DNA from: a virus
Virus record (IMG/VR): IMGVR_UViG_3300005529_000003
Coordinates: 30,831 to 94,830 of that record
DNA length: 64,000 bases
Strand: one strand, 5' to 3'
Shown one piece after another: positions 10,594 to 45,462 of the stretch (position 1 is the first letter of the stretch; every line of letters begins with the position of its first letter). Below the pieces are notes generated by a model. It saw only the letters and a list, made by a program, of their open reading frames with translations. It was not told where the DNA came from and did no database searches. A program made the position numbers and the translations under genes.

Positions 10594-10799
10594 CTTGGCT
10601 CCCAGGTGTTGTTGTCGAGTTCTTCTTGGGCTGTTTCTCTGGTGCGGAAGTAGTCAGATTCTCTGGAGTACGGGCCGCACTTGCAGATCGTGCCGATGTA
10701 GAAGCCCGCGGCCGATCGACAGACTTGCATCTGAAGTTTCGTTCCGCACTCAGAGCAGACGGGACTCGCACCACTGAGGATCGTTTCACCAGGAAGCAT
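10590..10799 (-). CDS. small Cys-rich protein (69 aa)
   Basis: The start chosen is the ATG at 10799, coupled to the stop of the NADAR gene (TGATG) with GGAG upstream. Cys residues come as CSEC and a later C-x-C (CKCGP), which fits a zinc ribbon. It lies between the NADAR and DUF4326 genes and overlaps both, so all three are probably made together. Confidence 0.6.
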   Translation of the reverse strand: MLPGETILSGASPVCSECGTKLQMQVCRSAAGFYIGTICKCGPYSRESDYFRTRETAQEELDNNTWEPR

Positions 10800-11263
10800 C
10801 ACTGATTCTCCTCTGCTTGTTTGAGTTCGTTGCGGACTTGCATGAGCAGCTTGCCGAGATAATTCTCGCCGACGCCGTTGCAAACTCCCCAGAAGACGTC
10901 ACCCCAGGTGTTCGCTTCCACGAGTTCTTCCTCACCCGTCGCCAGGAGCTTCTCTTTCAGGGACGAGATGGCGAACTTCTGTCGCAGCAGTCTCAGCATT
11001 ACCTCCAGCTTGATATCATCCCAGTCTGTTCGAACAGTCGATTGAAGTCCTCTTGCTGTTCGCTTTGCTGCTGCTGGCGTCTCACAGAGCAGGATCGCCT
11101 CACGAGCAGAGCGATCATCGCCTTGCCGAATGACTCCAGGGAAGAACTTTGCCCACTGATACGCCTGCTCGACAGAGTGAAACAGCGTGCCGTCTTTCGC
11201 CTTCACTTCACAAGCCCAGAAGTTCGAGAGCCAGCGGTATTCGCCAAAGAATCCAGCGATCAT
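10799..11263 (-). CDS. NADAR-family protein
   Basis: 154 residues from the ATG at 11263 (AAGGAG seven bases upstream). NADAR/YbiA landmarks are in order: GEYRWLSNFW, FHSVEQAYQWAKF, an Ala-Arg-Glu helix, AKRTARG, W-D-x-x-K...M..LLRQKF, LLATGEEELVEAN, DVFWG and NYLGKLLMQVR. NADAR enzymes act on N-glycosidic bonds of ADP-ribose-linked or related compounds, and some remove ADP-ribose from guanine in DNA. In a phage this could reverse an ADP-ribosylating defence of the DarT type; that is inference. It is the promoter-proximal gene of its operon, with the CTGAACGGTTTGTC-type motif upstream. Confidence 0.85.
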   Translation of the reverse strand: MIAGFFGEYRWLSNFWACEVKAKDGTLFHSVEQAYQWAKFFPGVIRQGDDRSAREAILLCETPAAAKRTARGLQSTVRTDWDDIKLEVMLRLLRQKFAISSLKEKLLATGEEELVEANTWGDVFWGVCNGVGENYLGKLLMQVRNELKQAEENQ

Positions 11264-11333
11264 CTTCCGCTCCTTCACCAGACTTGTAAGCGAGCAAGAG
11301 CGAAACATTCACTCTATCAAACTCACTTACACT

Positions 11334-14622: not shown

Positions 14623-15870
14623 ATGACACACCACAAGAAGAAAAAGAAGCGTCGTGGAAGGGGCGAAGGATCGATCTACAAGAGGGGCGACGGCCGGTGG
14701 GTCGCGATACTCGCTTCAGGGGAGGTTGACATTACAACGGGGAGGAAGAAGCGGAAGTACATCTACGCTGAGTCGAAGACAGAGGTCCTTCATCTTCTGG
14801 AAGATCACAAGGCGAAGTTAAAGGCGAAGCGTGTCGAGTCTCATGATAAGCGACTCCTTTGTGATTACCTCGACTCCTGGTTGGAGACGAAGAAACTTTC
14901 TGTAGAGAAACGGACACAGGAGTCGTACGAGTCGCATGTCCGCGTCCACATCAAGCCGAATCTCGGATCGATCAAGCTGCAAGATCTGACTTCGCAGAAC
15001 GTTCAGGACTTCTACTCAAAGCTCGTCAAGGATGGTGTCTCCTCGACGCAGGCGCGCAAGGTCGGGACGACACTTGGAGTCGCCCTGGCGGACGCGGTGA
15101 GGGCCCGACATCTGCTAGTCAATCCCTCTGTCGGCATTCGCAAGCCCAAGAAGGTCTTCAAGGAGAGTGAAGTATGGGACGAGGAGCAGTTGCGTTCTTT
15201 TCTCGCCGCCGCAAAACAAGACGAACGGCACTGGCCTTTCTACTTGACGATGCTCGACAGTGGACTACGCCCCGGTGAGCTTTGGGCATTGCGTTGGTCC
15301 GACGTGAACCTCGAGTTGGGAATACTGACGATCCGCAGGGCGATTGAAGGCGGATTAGGACCAGTCGGCGTCAAGGCTCCCAAGACGTCAAAAGGTCGGC
15401 GAAATGTCGTTCTATCTCCGCCGACAGTTGCAGTCCTTCGTGAACTGAGAGAGAAACGGCTGTTAGCAGGCGCGAAGGAAACGGACCTCATCTTCTGCAA
15501 CATCCGCGGCGGCTTCATGAGGTTCTCGAACTTCTATCGCGATTCATACAACCCCCTTCTGGAACGAGCGAACCTTCCTCACAAGCCGCTCTACACCCTC
15601 CGACACACATCCGCCACGCTCTTGCTCCTCCTGGGAGAGCCAGCGAAAATTGTCTCAGAGCGCCTTGGGCACTCGACAACGAGGCTCACACTTGATACTT
15701 ATAGTCATGTCCTCCCGTCCATGCAAAAGACGACAGCGGACAGGCTTGGCGGCCTGCTCGAGGGACTCATGGCGAAGAAAGATTTGAAACCTTCAGAGGC
15801 CGACGGGGTTAATACTCGGGTTGTAGATGGCGGTCCCGGAGGCTGCAACTCAGCAGATGGACAAACGTAA
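14623..15870 (+). CDS. int: tyrosine-family integrase
   Basis: 415 residues. A very basic N-terminus carries an arm-binding domain (GEGSIYKRGDGRWVA...Y). A SAM-like core-binding domain spans ~78-175, and the catalytic domain 185-375 holds R216 (SGLRPGEL), K257, R327 (TLRHTS), H350 (LGHSTTRL) and the nucleophile Y360 (DTYSHV). The usual box II His before L-R is Tyr324. The enzyme recombines attP and attB. GAGGAG lies 8 bases before the ATG, and attP follows 50 bases after the stop. Confidence 0.95.
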   Translation: MTHHKKKKKRRGRGEGSIYKRGDGRWVAILASGEVDITTGRKKRKYIYAESKTEVLHLLEDHKAKLKAKRVESHDKRLLCDYLDSWLETKKLSVEKRTQESYESHVRVHIKPNLGSIKLQDLTSQNVQDFYSKLVKDGVSSTQARKVGTTLGVALADAVRARHLLVNPSVGIRKPKKVFKESEVWDEEQLRSFLAAAKQDERHWPFYLTMLDSGLRPGELWALRWSDVNLELGILTIRRAIEGGLGPVGVKAPKTSKGRRNVVLSPPTVAVLRELREKRLLAGAKETDLIFCNIRGGFMRFSNFYRDSYNPLLERANLPHKPLYTLRHTSATLLLLLGEPAKIVSERLGHSTTRLTLDTYSHVLPSMQKTTADRLGGLLEGLMAKKDLKPSEADGVNTRVVDGGPGGCNSADGQT

Positions 15871-38386: not shown

Positions 38387-41209
38387 ATGCCTGACCGCGA
38401 GAACATGCCGCGATGGTGCGGCGGAGATTACATCTTCTCAGAAGACCTCAATGCCCTCTCTGAAGGCGTCGAGCGAGCTTCTCGTATCTCTGTCGGCCAG
38501 GGCATCGTTAGTAATTCCTTCGCCGGCAGCTACGAGAGCGATCGCGAAGTCATCTTCGTCAAGGCAACAGCTTACGAATCCTCGTCAGGTAAGTACGCCT
38601 TCAAGGAATACTCCTTTGCTGATGACGGGCTCTTCCAGGAGCGCGACGGGGGCGTATCGAGTTATAACGGAGACGCTTCTGACCCTTACGCCACGCCGCT
38701 TTATGAAGCGAACGGTAAGGTCTTCCCTGTTGACTCGATGGTGTGGGCGAAGCGGAGCGAGAACGGACAATACTACGTCTGCATTTACAACGATATCTCA
38801 GGCGGCGGTACACTCACTGGGCCTGTAACGTTCAGTGACCTTGTCACGTTCAATGGCTATCTTGTTGTAACTCCTGGCAGTACCCCCGGTTCGCCTGTCA
38901 ACGGCGAGGTGTGGACGACTTCCGGCGGCATCTTCGCCCGCATCAACGGCGTCACTTACAACATGCTGAACGCGGCATGGCCGACTATCACAACAGTGGA
39001 CGGCACGCCTTCTTATGCCTCCACCGGGACGGTCGCTTTCGACGAGGCGGACGGCTTCAGTCTGTCGCAGCCCTCGGCGAACGTGGTGCGTGTAGACTTA
39101 CTGGCGGCTTCGACGACGCAAACGGGCGTCATCACAACGGCGGCTCAGAACCTGGCCGGGGATAAAACACTCCTCGGTCTTTTCACTGTCTACGCTTCGG
39201 TTGGGAGCGTCGGCACTTATTTCATCCAGGAGAACTCGGGCAGCACCAACAAGGCGTATTTCACTTACGACACGACGGCGAAACAAGGGGCCGTCGGGAT
39301 CACGACGTCCACTCCAGACGTCGGAGTCGATATCTCCTTCATTTATACCGGGGGGGCGGCGAATGCGATCTGGTTCACGAATTACACTCACTCGACGGGG
39401 GCATACCCGCAACTAGGCATTCGTAAAGTAGAGGGACTCTCTTCGACGCTACTTCTGGGTGATGATGGCACCGATGCTCTCGGCAACGTCTTCACGAGTG
39501 GGCTCTGCACCACCGTCGGTCCCGGCACGTTAGGCACGTCGGCCCCACTAAACATCGACACCGACGGTACCCTCAGTGCAAATTCCAACACGCTGATCCC
39601 CACCCAGAACGCCGTCAAGACCTACGTCGATGCCGTCGCCACCGGGCTCGACTGGAAGGCGTCCGTCCGCGTTGCCACCACCGCCAACGGTACGCTGGCC
39701 ACGGCCTACGAGAACGGCGACACGATCGACGGCGTGACCCTGGCGACTGGCGATCGCATCCTGCTCAAGAACCAGACCAGCGGCGCGGAGAACGGAATCT
39801 ACGTCGTGGCTGCGTCCGGGGCACCAGCACGCGCCACCGACGCGAACACCTCGGCCGAGGTGACGTCGGGGCTGGCCTGCTTCGTCTCCGAGGGCTCGAC
39901 GAACGCGGGTTCGGCGTGGGTTCTCACCACGGCTGATCCCATCACCCTCGGCACGACGGCGCTCGTCTTCGCGCAGTTCAACGGAGGCAGCACCTACACG
40001 GCGGATGAATCCACGCTGCACCTGTCGGGGACGCAGTTCAGCGTGAAGACCAACGGCGTCGGCGACTCCCAGATCCGACAGTCGGCCGGCCTGTCTGTCG
40101 TTGGCCGCAGTGTCAACAGTACCGGCAACGTGGCCGACATCACGGCTGCCAACGACAACGAGGTCCTGCGCCGCAGCGGCACGGCGATTGGGTTCGGCAA
40201 GGCTTCTCACTCCGACTCGCTGAGTAGCCTCGGTTGGACCGTCAGCGGCCACACGGGGACGGCGGACACGCTGGCGGTGTTTGGCAGCTCCGGTCAGGCG
40301 TTGTCAATGGGGATTGGCGACTACACGACTGCCGTGCCGACAGCACTGGACTACTTCCTCTTCTACGACGTGTCTGCTGGCGGTCATCGCACCAACACGA
40401 TTGCCGGCATCCTGGCACTCGTGCCGGTGACTCGTGAGCTGCTGACGGCCAACCGTACCTACTACGTCCGCACGGATGGCAGCGACAGCCATGACGGGTC
40501 GGCCAACGATTCCTCCCACGCTTTTTTGACCATACAGAAGGCCATCGATGTAGCTGTGGCCCTGGACCTGTCCATCTACAGCGTCACCATCAGCGTAGCC
40601 GACGGGACGTACACTGGCTCCAACACCCTGAAGAGCTACGTCGGTGCCGGGCCGATCGCCATCGTGGGCAACACCACCACACCGGCCAACTGCGTCATCA
40701 GCGTCACGGGGGGAGACTGCTTTAGCGGCAACGGCGTGGTGGGACGCTACGAGATTCGCGGTTTCAAGCTAACGACAACGACTAGCGGCTTCGGCATCAA
40801 TGTCACGAACGACACGTTCATCAGCTCCCTGAAGAACATGAACTTCGGGGCGATGGCGACCAACTACTCGCAGATACTCTGCTCGTCGTACTCCGCCGTC
40901 GTGCTGACTGGCGATTACTCAATTACGGGCGGGGCCTACACGCATCTGAATGCTTCTGGCGGGTACATCATTTACTCCGGCTCGGCCACCGTCACCCTCA
41001 CGGGGACGCCGGCCTTCGCCTCGGCGTTCGCCCTGGCGGACCGCAAGGGGAAGGTCGAGACGTCTACCATCCCGACCTATTCGGGCTCTGCGACGGGGAC
41101 GCGGTACATTAGCCAGAACGTGTCGTTCATCTACACCGGCGGCAGCGGGGCCACCTTTTTCCCCGGCAATGCGGCCGGCAGCACAAGCAATGGCGGTGTT
41201 TACGCATGA
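38387..41209 (+). CDS. tail fibre/tailspike with beta-helix C-terminus (940 aa)
   Basis: Modular. Residues 1-150 form an attachment region. 150-400 are Gly/Thr-rich fibre repeats. ~395-540 hold the widespread fibre module LIPTQNAVKTYVDAVATGLD...VRVATTANGTLATAYENGD...GDRILLKNQTSGAENGIYVV. About 680-930 form a right-handed beta-helix-like domain (YVRTDGSDSHDGSANDSS...FLTIQKAIDVA). It binds and may cleave the host surface receptor. From about 39550 leucine is mostly CTG instead of CTC, so the distal half probably came from another phage. Confidence 0.85.
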   Translation: MPDRENMPRWCGGDYIFSEDLNALSEGVERASRISVGQGIVSNSFAGSYESDREVIFVKATAYESSSGKYAFKEYSFADDGLFQERDGGVSSYNGDASDPYATPLYEANGKVFPVDSMVWAKRSENGQYYVCIYNDISGGGTLTGPVTFSDLVTFNGYLVVTPGSTPGSPVNGEVWTTSGGIFARINGVTYNMLNAAWPTITTVDGTPSYASTGTVAFDEADGFSLSQPSANVVRVDLLAASTTQTGVITTAAQNLAGDKTLLGLFTVYASVGSVGTYFIQENSGSTNKAYFTYDTTAKQGAVGITTSTPDVGVDISFIYTGGAANAIWFTNYTHSTGAYPQLGIRKVEGLSSTLLLGDDGTDALGNVFTSGLCTTVGPGTLGTSAPLNIDTDGTLSANSNTLIPTQNAVKTYVDAVATGLDWKASVRVATTANGTLATAYENGDTIDGVTLATGDRILLKNQTSGAENGIYVVAASGAPARATDANTSAEVTSGLACFVSEGSTNAGSAWVLTTADPITLGTTALVFAQFNGGSTYTADESTLHLSGTQFSVKTNGVGDSQIRQSAGLSVVGRSVNSTGNVADITAANDNEVLRRSGTAIGFGKASHSDSLSSLGWTVSGHTGTADTLAVFGSSGQALSMGIGDYTTAVPTALDYFLFYDVSAGGHRTNTIAGILALVPVTRELLTANRTYYVRTDGSDSHDGSANDSSHAFLTIQKAIDVAVALDLSIYSVTISVADGTYTGSNTLKSYVGAGPIAIVGNTTTPANCVISVTGGDCFSGNGVVGRYEIRGFKLTTTTSGFGINVTNDTFISSLKNMNFGAMATNYSQILCSSYSAVVLTGDYSITGGAYTHLNASGGYIIYSGSATVTLTGTPAFASAFALADRKGKVETSTIPTYSGSATGTRYISQNVSFIYTGGSGATFFPGNAAGSTSNGGVYA

Positions 41210-41442
41210 CCACTTACACGAGCGACGAATTCCTGAACCTGTGGAAGATCCCCCTCGACTGCCCGCACTGCCTGGGACGGGCGAGGCGGTTCGGGCTGCA
41301 CACCGTGGCACCATCCGAGGGGTACGCGATCTGCTTTTGTGGTGGGCTCATCGAGTTCCCTCCACTGCCACCCGGCGCGGGCGAGGTAATCGTGGATGAC
41401 ACGACGGGCAGGCGATACCTGACGAGGAAAAAGGCGTCATGA
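41206..41442 (+). CDS. zinc-binding small protein (78 aa)
   Basis: ATGA overlap with the fibre gene. CPHCLGRARRFGLH and CFCGGLIEFPPLP give a CxxC...CxC zinc ribbon, followed by a beta strand and basic tail. It may help fibre assembly, but this is inferred from coupling only. Confidence 0.6.
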   Translation: MTTYTSDEFLNLWKIPLDCPHCLGRARRFGLHTVAPSEGYAICFCGGLIEFPPLPPGAGEVIVDDTTGRRYLTRKKAS

Positions 41443-41885
41443 TCACCTATAGCGAGGACCCGGCCGGCATCAACCTCTCCCGACTCCGCGCCCTCGTCGA
41501 GGCGAGGGGCGGCACGGTCGAGGTGTTCCGGGGGCGCAAGTTAGACGGCTCTCCTGGCGTGGCCCAACTCAACGTCAGTCTCCCCTTCGATGGGGACACC
41601 CCCGAGGCACGGACGGCCTTCAACGAGTGCGTGACCCAGGCCACGGGAATCAGTGACTCGAACGAAGCGGCGGCGAAGGTTTTGCGTGATCGCCTCTCCG
41701 CGAAGTCCGTCCTGGATGATCCAGGCCCCAACGGTAAACTGGCTCGCGCTGCTTTGATCGCCTTCTGCGACGACAACAAAATCAAGGACGCGAAAGACAA
41801 ACTCAAAGCCGGCAAGAACAAAGACGCCCTCGACTCGATCATCGCCGTCGTCAAGGCGGTCATCGACTCTGGCGATGTGGACTAA
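41439..41885 (+). CDS. hypothetical protein after the tail fibre (148 aa)
   Basis: ATGA overlap with the previous gene. The first ~55 residues look mixed alpha/beta (LSRLRALVEARGGTVEVFRG). The rest is Asp/Lys/Ala-rich and helical (GKLARAALIAFCDDNKIKDA). No family recognised. The tight coupling suggests a role in tail assembly or in the following cassette. Confidence 0.55.
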   Translation: MITYSEDPAGINLSRLRALVEARGGTVEVFRGRKLDGSPGVAQLNVSLPFDGDTPEARTAFNECVTQATGISDSNEAAAKVLRDRLSAKSVLDDPGPNGKLARAALIAFCDDNKIKDAKDKLKAGKNKDALDSIIAVVKAVIDSGDVD

Positions 41886-41890
41886 CCCTC

Positions 41891-42685
41891 ATGAACTCCG
41901 AACGCAACAAATTCTTACTTGTCCTCGCCCTTGCCGCAGCCGCCCTCTTTTACGTCGAACAACAGCAACAGAAGAACAAGTGTCCGGACGGCCGTTGTCC
42001 CCTTCCTCCGCCTTCTCCTGCTCCTTTCAACCCTTTTCCTCCATCACCTAAGCCTCCGACTCCACCGCCTCCTAAGCCGTGGGAGCCAGATGACTCCGAG
42101 GCCGGTCGGTCTACTCGCGGAGTCATTTTCGGTAATCCGGTAAAGGGGACAAAGACTTCTCCTGACGGCACTGTCGATTGTCTTGACTTACCGCAGTCCG
42201 AGAAAAAGCACAACGTCGGTGGTCGAGATGGGGCAGGGCTTTGCGTGTTTACATCCATCGAGTACTCTGCTCGATGGAGTAACGAGCGGCGGCTTTACGA
42301 GTTCCAGAATCAGATGAGGAAAGAACCTGGCGGCGGCCATCCAGAGAAGGTCGAAAAGATGATGGCGAAGTACGCCCCTGGTGTCGCCTACATCCAGGAC
42401 ACGACGGGTGACTATGAGTTGTTGAAGGCGGCAATCAAGTCGGGGCGGATGCCGTCTGTCACTTACAACGGCTACGATCCCCATTATCGAGGCCCCGTCG
42501 CTCACATGGTCAGTTGTGCGTGGGCGGACGACAGGTGGGCTTGTGTGACGGACAACAACTTCCCCCAGGACTCCGAACACATCTGGATGTCTCCCGCCGA
42601 TTTCGTGTCAAGATTCAAAGGTGGTGGCGGTGGCTGGAGTGTGATCCTCCTGAACCCTGGCCCCCCTCCTGTTCCAATTAACTAA
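41891..42685 (+). CDS. membrane-anchored C39-like cysteine peptidase
   Basis: 264 residues. A signal-anchor helix (8-22, FLLVLALAAAALFYV) and a Pro-rich spacer (38-66) lead to a papain-like domain of the peptidase C39_2 type. Candidate catalytic residues are Cys118 (GAGLCVFTSIEYSARW), His205 (GPVAHMVSCAW) and Asp221/Asn222 (CVTDNNFPQ). The domain would lie outside the cytoplasmic membrane. It is placed where phages carry lysis genes, so it may attack host envelope protein. An alternative is a role in entry or in processing of a surface protein. Confidence 0.7.
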   Translation: MNSERNKFLLVLALAAAALFYVEQQQQKNKCPDGRCPLPPPSPAPFNPFPPSPKPPTPPPPKPWEPDDSEAGRSTRGVIFGNPVKGTKTSPDGTVDCLDLPQSEKKHNVGGRDGAGLCVFTSIEYSARWSNERRLYEFQNQMRKEPGGGHPEKVEKMMAKYAPGVAYIQDTTGDYELLKAAIKSGRMPSVTYNGYDPHYRGPVAHMVSCAWADDRWACVTDNNFPQDSEHIWMSPADFVSRFKGGGGGWSVILLNPGPPPVPIN

Positions 42686-42696
42686 AGAGACTTCTT

Positions 42697-43704
42697 GTGT
42701 TTCGAACTTCCTTTCTGTTCTTTCTTGCTGTTTTTCTTCTTCTCGTTCTTGTCGCGTTTCTTTCTGCCGCTGTTCATGATAGCAGTGACGAACAACAGGA
42801 GGTCATCGTCTCGCGAGCCTCGAGGGGTTCCCCCGACTACAGCCGGGCGAGCTGGGAGAGGCCGCAACCGTCTGACACGACTCCGCCCACTCACTACTGG
42901 CTCGTATGGAAGAACCTCGACGGGAGCAAGACGACGATCGGCAAGTATCATGCAGTCGGTCTGAAGGCCGGGCAGTTCTTCTACTTCGACGGTGAAAGGG
43001 GCTACGAAACACGACCTTCACCTCCGCCCATTCAACCGCCGCTTACTCCTCCTCCTCCTTCTCCTGTTCTTCCTCCTGTTCTTCCTCCTGTGGTCATTCC
43101 ACGCGAGAACTTCGGCGTTGACGTGGACCGGATTCACCGCTCTCCGGAGCAGATTACCGTTAGTCCCTCAACAGGGAGTAAAGACAAGAAGGAGATTGGT
43201 CGGCAGGAGGCCATCGAGATCATCACGAAAGGCTTACCGGAGGATCGCCAGAAGCTCCGTGTTACAGTCATCGGGAGCGAGTCCGCCTGCCAGCAAGTCG
43301 TCAATGATTTGAAGACATCGCCCGCCCTTCTGCCTTATTCGTCGAACGTCCTCATACAGGATTATCGCCCTGGTGAGTGGGCACTCAACTGCGGCTTTCT
43401 GGCGACTGTAGACCCCACCATTTACGTTCAGAAGCCTCCAGACCAGGCAGGGCGGGGGAAGGTCCTCCACCGCCAGGACGGCTACGATGGCCCAGAGAAG
43501 CTCGCTGTCGCTCTCAGGAAGGCTGACCCCTCTTATAACCCCGCCAATGATCCTGATCTGCGCCGGCCGAATTCGATCCTTCCGTCGTTCGACCTCTCCA
43601 ACGTCCCGCCGTGGGCCATCCTCGCTGGGGCCTTCGGTGGATATGCCCTCCTCACCCGATCACCTCCCCCTTCTCCTTCTCCGTCTCCTTCCGACAAAAA
43701 GTAA
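42697..43704 (+). CDS. bitopic Pro-rich membrane protein (335 aa)
   Basis: GTG start. N-terminal membrane helix (residues 5-26, SFLFFLAVFLLLVLVAFLSA), two Pro/Ser-rich linkers, and a central domain (~165-285: RQEAIEIITKGLPEDRQKLR, VTVIGSESACQQVVNDL). A second membrane segment sits near the C-terminus (~305-323, PPWAILAGAFGGYALL) before a Ser/Pro/Lys tail. The two ends would be in membranes with the folded part between. Spanin-like bridging is possible but speculative. Confidence 0.6.
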   Translation: MFRTSFLFFLAVFLLLVLVAFLSAAVHDSSDEQQEVIVSRASRGSPDYSRASWERPQPSDTTPPTHYWLVWKNLDGSKTTIGKYHAVGLKAGQFFYFDGERGYETRPSPPPIQPPLTPPPPSPVLPPVLPPVVIPRENFGVDVDRIHRSPEQITVSPSTGSKDKKEIGRQEAIEIITKGLPEDRQKLRVTVIGSESACQQVVNDLKTSPALLPYSSNVLIQDYRPGEWALNCGFLATVDPTIYVQKPPDQAGRGKVLHRQDGYDGPEKLAVALRKADPSYNPANDPDLRRPNSILPSFDLSNVPPWAILAGAFGGYALLTRSPPPSPSPSPSDKK

Positions 43705-43708
43705 GAGC

Positions 43709-44308
43709 ATGAACTCGTCTTCGACCGAAACCATTCCTTCTCCTGATGTTGTTTCTACTACTCCTACTCCCTCTCCCATCACCACGGACTTGACCACAAT
43801 GGATACGAATTCGCTCATCCCCTACATCGTTGGCGCTATCATTGCCCTCCTCGCTCAGTGGCTCAGTCACGGCAAACTGCGAATCCCCTTCCCTACTCTT
43901 CCTTCTTCACCAACTCCGCCTTCGACTTCGCCTTCTCCTTCCTCTCAACCGCCTTCTTCTTCTTCTCCTCTTTCGGCGACGACTCCAGCGTCCCTCGCCT
44001 CGATGCCCCCTCTAACGCCTCAGCAGCACGCCGCTCTTCTGCCCCATCTCATTCCCCTGCTGACGAGCATTCTTGCGAACCACACAACTCCTCTGAGCCC
44101 TCCGCCTTCTGTCTCTCCTGTCTCTCCTGTTTCTCCTGTTTCTCCTGTCGTTACGACTCCTTCTTCGACCCCTGCGACTGATCCGGCGACTCTCGCGTCC
44201 TCCGTCTCTGCCTCCATGCCTATCCTCCTGGCCGCGATCTCTGCCGTCCTGCCAACTCTTGTCGAATACCTCCTTGGCAGGATCAAGACTGGGGAGATCA
44301 AGCCGTGA
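43709..44308 (+). CDS. Ser/Pro/Thr-rich membrane protein, holin candidate (199 aa)
   Basis: The start chosen is the ATG at 43709, 5 bases after the previous stop; the same frame is open upstream but without protein character. One membrane helix at ~31-48 (LIPYIVGAIIALLAQWLS), a long Ser/Pro/Thr linker with repeated SPV triplets, and a hydrophobic C-terminal helix (PILLAAISAVLPTLVEYLLG). Small two-helix membrane proteins next to lytic enzymes are often holins; here it is only a candidate. Confidence 0.5.
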   Translation: MNSSSTETIPSPDVVSTTPTPSPITTDLTTMDTNSLIPYIVGAIIALLAQWLSHGKLRIPFPTLPSSPTPPSTSPSPSSQPPSSSSPLSATTPASLASMPPLTPQQHAALLPHLIPLLTSILANHTTPLSPPPSVSPVSPVSPVSPVVTTPSSTPATDPATLASSVSASMPILLAAISAVLPTLVEYLLGRIKTGEIKP

Positions 44309-44661
44309 GCCAGATCACACCGGGCGGCTCCTTTGCCGCCATGACTTTTACGCCAAGGCAGCTCCTTGTCTACGGTCTCGCCCTCTTCGTCTTCCTTCAT
44401 TTCGCTGACAAGATCTTCTTCTCCTCCTCTTCCTCCTTACCGAATAGATCGCCAGCAGGGAAGATTCACTGCGAAGTTCGAGTGGTCTGTGACCCGTTCC
44501 AAAAGGAAGCTAGATTAGTGAAGATCAAGGACGGCGGGGCCGTCATCCTGCTATCCTTCCACACTCCCGAGGACGCTGCGAGTGCGGCCAAGGTCATCCT
44601 CGACGTCCTCCGGGATTACCCCCTGCCGCTGCCTCCGCCTTTACCGAGACCTTCCCCATGA
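44305..44661 (+). CDS. small membrane-anchored protein (118 aa)
   Basis: GTGA overlap with the preceding gene and a good GGGGAG site 8 bases upstream. A membrane helix at ~18-38 (PRQLLVYGLALFVFLHFADK) is followed by a small soluble domain (HCEVRVVCDPFQKEARLVKI) and a Pro-rich end. It is part of the same coupled cassette. Function unknown. Confidence 0.55.
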   Translation: MSQITPGGSFAAMTFTPRQLLVYGLALFVFLHFADKIFFSSSSSLPNRSPAGKIHCEVRVVCDPFQKEARLVKIKDGGAVILLSFHTPEDAASAAKVILDVLRDYPLPLPPPLPRPSP

Positions 44662-45395
44662 CACGATTCTTCTCTCTCTTCTCCTTCTTCTGTTTTCTCT
44701 TTCCTCCTGCCTCACTCGACGCCTTTGCTGCCACGCTCAAGGAGGACGTGTTGCTGAATGTCGTTCACATCGACGCAGGCAAGTACTTGGGGTCCGGGAT
44801 CACAATTGTACACAACGGAGAGCTGCACGTTCTCACCGCAGCCCATGTCGTCTCTGACGTCATGAAGCTTAAATCCATCCGCTTCATCGACGCGAAGGGT
44901 GAGGTCTACTCCCGCGAGGAAAAAGTAACGCCACGCTACGTTGACTGTACCTGGAAGAACGACACCAAGCTTCGCTGTCAGGTTGTCTGGTACTCTGCGG
45001 ACTGGGAGGGAGGGGCCATCGACCTTGCTCTCTTAAAACCCGACGCAGCCGGGCTTAAACTGCTCAAGGACGCGGGCGTCAAGGGGGCAACACTCGCTGG
45101 GAAAGAAGACGCCGGGCTTGAGGAAGGAGAAGACGCCTGGTATTGCGGCTCGGGGGGCGGCATCAAGTGGGGACTCGAGAAGACGATCATTTCCCGCTTT
45201 GATGATCGTTACCTCGTCGTTAACGGCTGCGGTTGGTTTGGACACTCTGGAAGTGGCGTTTTCGTGAAACGTGGAGACTCCTTCAAACTCGTCGGCATCA
45301 TCAGTCAGTTCATTCAGCATCCGAACGAGAACTTCAAGTCGCCCATCGAGGCCGAACGCCAACTTCAGACGTTCCTCGACGGCGTACCGAAGTAA
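44658..45395 (+). CDS. secreted trypsin-like serine protease
   Basis: 245 residues. A signal peptide (residues 1-24, TRFFSLFSFFCFLFPPASLD) is followed by a chymotrypsin-fold protease with the triad His63 (LTAAHVVSD), Asp122 (IDLALLKPD) and Ser197 (FGHSGSGVF). The length is that of a bare catalytic domain without a PDZ, so it is not a full HtrA. It is the last gene of the late operon before a strong terminator. With the C39-like enzyme it forms a pair of envelope-directed proteases where an endolysin is expected. Confidence 0.85.
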   Translation: MTRFFSLFSFFCFLFPPASLDAFAATLKEDVLLNVVHIDAGKYLGSGITIVHNGELHVLTAAHVVSDVMKLKSIRFIDAKGEVYSREEKVTPRYVDCTWKNDTKLRCQVVWYSADWEGGAIDLALLKPDAAGLKLLKDAGVKGATLAGKEDAGLEEGEDAWYCGSGGGIKWGLEKTIISRFDDRYLVVNGCGWFGHSGSGVFVKRGDSFKLVGIISQFIQHPNENFKSPIEAERQLQTFLDGVPK

Positions 45396-45421: not shown

Positions 45422-45462
45422 AACGCCTCAGTCTTGATTGACTGAGGCGTTTTCTTTTTCTT
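45422..45462 (+). terminator. strong terminator of the late operon
   Basis: Perfect 12-bp stem AACGCCTCAGTC / GACTGAGGCGTT with a 6-nt loop, followed by TTCTTTTTCTTC on the plus strand. It overlaps the stop of the converging gene at 45428, so the two transcription units meet here. Confidence 0.92.

Follow-up and report, generated by a model that had tools for sequence, protein, structure and literature searches.

How do viruses of planctomycetes open their hosts? To our knowledge phage lysis of planctomycetes has not been described, and a literature search returned nothing directly on the subject. We approached the question through a block of six tightly coupled genes (41439–45395, all on the + strand) in a 64,000-nucleotide stretch of virus DNA, here called the window, which comprises bases 30831–94830 of the 94,830-bp record IMGVR_UViG_3300005529_000003; genes were called across the entire record. 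An earlier note, made from the sequence of the window, had proposed that these genes form a protease-based cassette in place of a recognisable endolysin. We propose, with a probability of about one half, that the block is a late lysis cassette in which an exported, membrane-tethered papain-like peptidase takes the place of the standard endolysin. This candidate assignment is the best single reading because the position in the late operon, the export and anchor signals, a conserved catalytic triad, a linked partner protein, adjacent small membrane proteins and the failure to find another lysin all agree with it.

The block forms the 3' end of a late operon, downstream of the portal, capsid, tail and tail-fibre genes, with intergenic spacings of 5, 11, 4, −4 and −4 bases. 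A hairpin of the intrinsic terminator type starts 27 bases after its end, and the genes beyond are convergent, on the − strand from 45428. Coordinates, strand and coupling were as previously described; the cassette does follow the tail fibre, but not directly, as two small genes (41206–41442 and 41439–41885) separate the tail fibre from the papain-like peptidase gene. As in endolysin–holin cassettes, a gene for a hydrolase fold lies late in the operon and beside genes for small membrane proteins, so that the protease-based cassette occupies the place expected for a lysis cassette.

An AlphaFold2 (AF2) model of the 264-residue peptidase (predicted local distance difference test score, pLDDT, 83.1) consists of an N-terminal helix (residues 2–30), a disordered proline-rich linker and a papain-like domain (residues ~89–256). 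The modelled elements H117–129, E202–212 and E217–220 place Cys118 at the N-terminus of the central helix, His205 in a strand and Asp221 after the next strand. With VIA-align the model matched papain-like enzymes at Z scores of 10–13, as expected of a papain-like (clan CA-like) fold. The best match was PeiR (Z 13.1, root-mean-square deviation 3.1, 142 residues), nearly tied with the C39-like structure 3erv (Z 12.5) and CtaG (Z 12.2), and followed by phytochelatin synthase (Z 11.8), contact-dependent inhibition (CDI) toxins and papain at 10–12, and PCAT (Z 10.8). The modelled fold points to the papain-like class and not specifically to a lysin. The earlier label 'C39-like' therefore holds for the fold but not for the family: no match to Pfam C39 was found in 28 family members, and the glutamine six residues before the catalytic cysteine of C39 enzymes is absent, its position being R, S, K or T in the family alignment.

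Relatives of this peptidase were not found by simple patterns drawn from the window proteins alone, nor by tblastn in 50,697 named phages; the protein matches no Pfam family at E ≤ 1 and no PHROG, and the profile of its family gave no sequence match in the PDB at E ≤ 10. A DNA pattern for the motif DGAGLCVF returned 57 viral stretches, of which tblastn confirmed nearly all, and a profile-guided search confirmed the family in 97 of 102 candidate viral stretches. Members also occur in 11 bacterial contigs, nine of which are titled Planctomycetota (Planctomycetaceae, Gemmataceae, Gemmatales), which makes the host phylum supposed earlier plausible. One member alone (L071) sits in a metagenome-assembled genome titled Chloroflexi, which points either to faulty binning or to a host from another phylum. 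None of the 73 distinct sequences of the family departs from Cys118, His205 and Asp221; the histidine and aspartate were in none of the search patterns, and the cysteine in one of two. Such invariance implies, as far as sequence can tell, that the protein is catalytic. An N-terminal hydrophobic segment is present in 44 of the 58 testable relatives. The phage structural genes that accompany the family fall into at least four different sets, and lineage labels placed on the peptidase tree require at least four changes; because four groups demand a minimum of three, exchange between phage lineages is only weakly indicated.

The next gene encodes a 335-residue partner with a hydrophobic N-terminus, a small beta domain, a proline linker, a thioredoxin-like domain and a C-terminal membrane anchor, the last of these being found in most partners. 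Many relatives carry its conserved part fused to the peptidase (about 34 fused and about 35 split among 73). The peptidase tree calls for four or more switches between the fused and split states, two of them forced by well-supported branches, and this recurrence of fusion and splitting suggests that peptidase and partner function together. The AF2 model of a fused homologue (L004, mean pLDDT 82.8) shows a papain-like domain, a small beta domain, a thioredoxin-like domain and a C-terminal helix; its thioredoxin-like domain was matched by Foldseek with a probability of 1.00. A CxxC motif occurs in just one of 82 partner domains, and because the other 81 lack it we think that the domain is probably a binding module. 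A redox-active thioredoxin role was considered for the partner and rejected for want of CxxC, despite the fold match. These two, the papain-like protein and the thioredoxin-like partner, make up the cassette's conserved core.

In relatives, the peptidase and partner genes are followed by small membrane proteins from several unrelated families. A small open reading frame (ORF) with a predicted membrane segment lies within 500 bp downstream at 30 of 55 testable distinct loci, compared with 42 of 457 positions that follow other genes of those loci (odds ratio 12, Fisher p 2e-14, a value that is too optimistic because the loci are not fully independent). In the window, the product of 43709–44308 is a holin-like candidate by position. 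This gene and the one before it had been taken for two proline-rich bitopic membrane proteins: both genes exist, but two hydrophobic segments are predicted in the former product where one had been supposed, and 42697–43704 encodes the peptidase's thioredoxin-like partner rather than an unrelated proline-rich protein. Two small membrane-protein families, marked by 'GWKTTEFW..' and 'GYKTYLAAAGL..YQFSQG', recur downstream of the peptidase elsewhere (L075–L104, L117–L147). They are holin-like in size, hydropathy and position, and match no family well.

The last gene of the block encodes a secreted trypsin-like protease, as proposed: its match to Trypsin_2 (PF13365; E 1.4e-9, 39.3 bits) lies above the curated cut-off of 27.6. 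Its His63, Asp122 and Ser197 recur in a relative from another phage (L112) that has 26% identity and the same place in the cassette. The residue numbers given earlier for both triads were exact, and neither triad is a chance pattern, the first being invariant in 73 sequences and the second resting on a significant family match and on this relative. The idea of two proteases as equal partners fails, since a trypsin-like gene is present in just 3 of 42 records and at the cassette position in 2; it is an accessory and not part of the conserved core. The first gene of the block encodes a 148-residue protein that matches no Pfam family and no PHROG (Table 1).

Table 1. Features of the gene block and of the hairpin beyond it, in window positions
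Feature	Position	Strand	Basis and detail
148-aa protein, function unassigned, first of the coupled block	41439..41885	+	ORF; codon-position GC 0.62/0.44/0.79, coding-like
Membrane-anchored papain/C39-fold cysteine peptidase, 264 aa	41891..42685	+	AF2 model; triad Cys118, His205, Asp221
Partner protein, 335 aa	42697..43704 (GTG start)	+	tblastn to 43 loci; fused homologue modelled
Pro-rich protein (19% Pro), ~199 aa, two predicted hydrophobic segments	43709..44308	+	ATG at 43709; hydropathy
118-aa protein, one predicted membrane segment	44305..44661 (GTG start)	+	Hydropathy; 4-base overlap with each neighbour
Secreted trypsin-like serine protease, 245 aa, His63/Asp122/Ser197	44658..45395	+	Pfam Trypsin_2
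Strong terminator-like hairpin, intrinsic type	45422..45451	+	12-bp stem, then T-rich tail; closes the rightward operon

The earlier statement that the window shows no muramidase, amidase or transglycosylase motif holds at the level of Pfam, both there and in the rest of the record. No peptidoglycan-hydrolase family is among the Pfam matches listed for the record's called genes (for two of the three gene sets the best 25 families, the others being weaker than E ~0.002), a search that could miss divergent enzymes. Among records bearing the peptidase, many of which are fragments, Amidase_2 was found in 0 of 42, and Phage_lysozyme, CHAP, SLT, M15_4 and M23 in 0 of the 21 longer ones.

Were the block a lysis cassette, the peptidase would be exported across the inner membrane and stay tethered to it, and the partner, a redox-dead thioredoxin-like module with an anchor of its own, would probably position the enzyme or its substrate. 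Disturbance of the membrane by the small proteins encoded alongside would let the peptidase act. Its targets would then be envelope peptide bonds, most probably in the stem or cross-link peptides of peptidoglycan, so that it would fill the role of an endolysin, while the accessory trypsin-like protease might degrade envelope proteins or activate the peptidase. A broader claim is more tentative, and we place it a little short of even odds: that this is a new lysis system of planctomycete viruses, common to several unrelated phage lineages, in which the tethered peptidase and its redox-dead partner replace all standard endolysins.

Several points weigh against lysis. No member of the peptidase family has a known activity, and the papain fold is common to non-lytic enzymes such as phytochelatin synthase, CtaG and CDI toxins. 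In some prophage-like loci (L083, L072) the gene sits among head–tail genes and not after the tail fibre. The best PHROG holin matches of the small membrane proteins have E values of 0.14–0.23, and no holin family is significant. The absence of standard lysins is itself weak and poorly discriminating evidence, because longer records that share the capsid and lack the peptidase are equally devoid of Amidase_2, Phage_lysozyme and M15_4 (0 of 14). Matches to M23 (L236) and DPBB_1, two hydrolases among five peptidase-free capsid relatives, are a faint sign of replacement, from few cases. As a separate observation, many contigs of 10–17 kb from metagenome 3300047160 (L156–L235) share an HK97-type capsid related to those next to the peptidase; they may be small prophages or elements resembling gene-transfer agents.

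The main rival, which we consider unlikely, is that the block is an exported host-modification cassette: rather than lysing the cell, its two proteases and its membrane proteins would work on the surface of the host, in infection or in lysogeny, to exclude superinfection, shave receptors or defend against competitors. Among the record's genes is an integrase-like one (window 14623–15870, +; Phage_integrase match in its gene set), which makes a temperate phage probable even though the contig is a free viral one whose ends match. Such a role would suit proteases that are exported and anchored and have no proven wall substrate, and the papain fold of the peptidase ties with CDI toxin domains. However, the genes belong to the late operon, where some neighbours overlap by 4 bases, and no site in the block resembles a promoter more than chance would allow; that the family is conserved with four or more sets of structural genes also suggests that its function is core and not optional.

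It is less likely again that the anchored peptidase is a processing machine, maturing another exported protein of phage or host while an unrecognised enzyme opens the wall. C39 peptidases process leader peptides, and the C39-like fold (3erv, PCAT) and the fusion to a thioredoxin-like binding module would suit this role. Against it, neither an ABC (ATP-binding cassette) transporter nor a leader-peptide substrate was seen nearby, the usual glutamine before the catalytic cysteine is missing, and the peptidase is repeatedly associated with genes for small membrane proteins.

The near-tied matches to phytochelatin synthase and CtaG could instead indicate a papain-fold enzyme other than a hydrolase, such as a transpeptidase or a cross-linker of envelope components; we regard this as improbable, given that the full Cys-His-Asp triad is invariant and that true peptidases match at equal or higher Z. 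Least probable of all is a virion component, packaged or tail-associated, that opens the envelope at entry or matures the virion: the cassette adjoins tail genes, and the gene lies among head–tail genes in some loci, but the N-terminal hydrophobic segments and the C-terminal anchors of the partners point to export, which is normally absent from virion proteins, and a separate head protease is present. That protease, a Peptidase_S78 of the head-maturation type (Pfam), is encoded elsewhere in the record; neither cassette protease matches S78, and a head-maturation role for them was rejected on these grounds and on their export signals.

The record has 110 identical bases at both ends and is therefore probably complete or circularly permuted. 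At its start (L002:83–1135, +), a gene cut by the record ends encodes the C-terminal portion of a family A DNA polymerase, in which a LAGLIDADG-like segment suggests an intein or homing endonuclease. A CsrA-like RNA-binding regulator is encoded just outside the window (L003:14485–14688, −; its gene set matches Pfam CsrA at E 2.2e-22, and the gene was assigned by motif). The gene at window 10799–11308 (−) probably encodes a NADAR-domain protein (PF08719 E 2.4e-24 in the gene set, gene again assigned by motif); NADAR-type proteins can counter ADP-ribosylating defences.

The papain, trypsin and thioredoxin folds and the lysis cassette are each of an already known kind; the libraries searched contain neither the peptidase family, nor its export-and-anchor architecture, nor its thioredoxin-like partner. 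The family is a concrete candidate for opening the unusual planctomycete envelope, and it marks phages of Planctomycetota in metagenomes. CHAP and NlpC/P60 endolysins are papain-like cysteine enzymes used in phage lysis, and no sequence relation between them and the phage peptidase was found. C39 and C39-like peptidases (3erv, PCAT, ComA) share the papain-like fold and Cys-His-Asp residues (Z 12.5 and 10.7–10.8), whereas the phage peptidase is predicted to be exported and anchored and has no ABC transporter context. The trypsin-like protein is a member of Trypsin_2 with the full triad, set apart by being secreted and encoded in a late operon. The closest match in structure is PeiR, which like PeiW and PeiP of methanogen viruses is a pseudomurein endoisopeptidase, a class of enzyme that cleaves the Ala-epsilon-Lys bonds of pseudomurein. 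The phage peptidase has the Cys-His-Asp triad in a papain-like fold in common with these enzymes, but it is only 13% identical to PeiR with no sequence match, and other papain folds come within 1 Z. The Pei enzymes are virus-encoded and wall-opening, PeiW and PeiP cutting pseudomurein peptides (PMC4592898); this substrate is archaeal and not a bacterial envelope, and no thioredoxin-like partner like that of the phage peptidase was seen for them in the literature consulted. The earlier rationale, that proteases suit a protein-rich planctomycete envelope, is outdated: planctomycetes possess lysozyme-sensitive peptidoglycan sacculi containing diaminopimelic acid (PMC4432640), and a peptidase that cuts the peptides of peptidoglycan, much as PeiW and PeiP cut those of pseudomurein, is therefore at least as natural for them.

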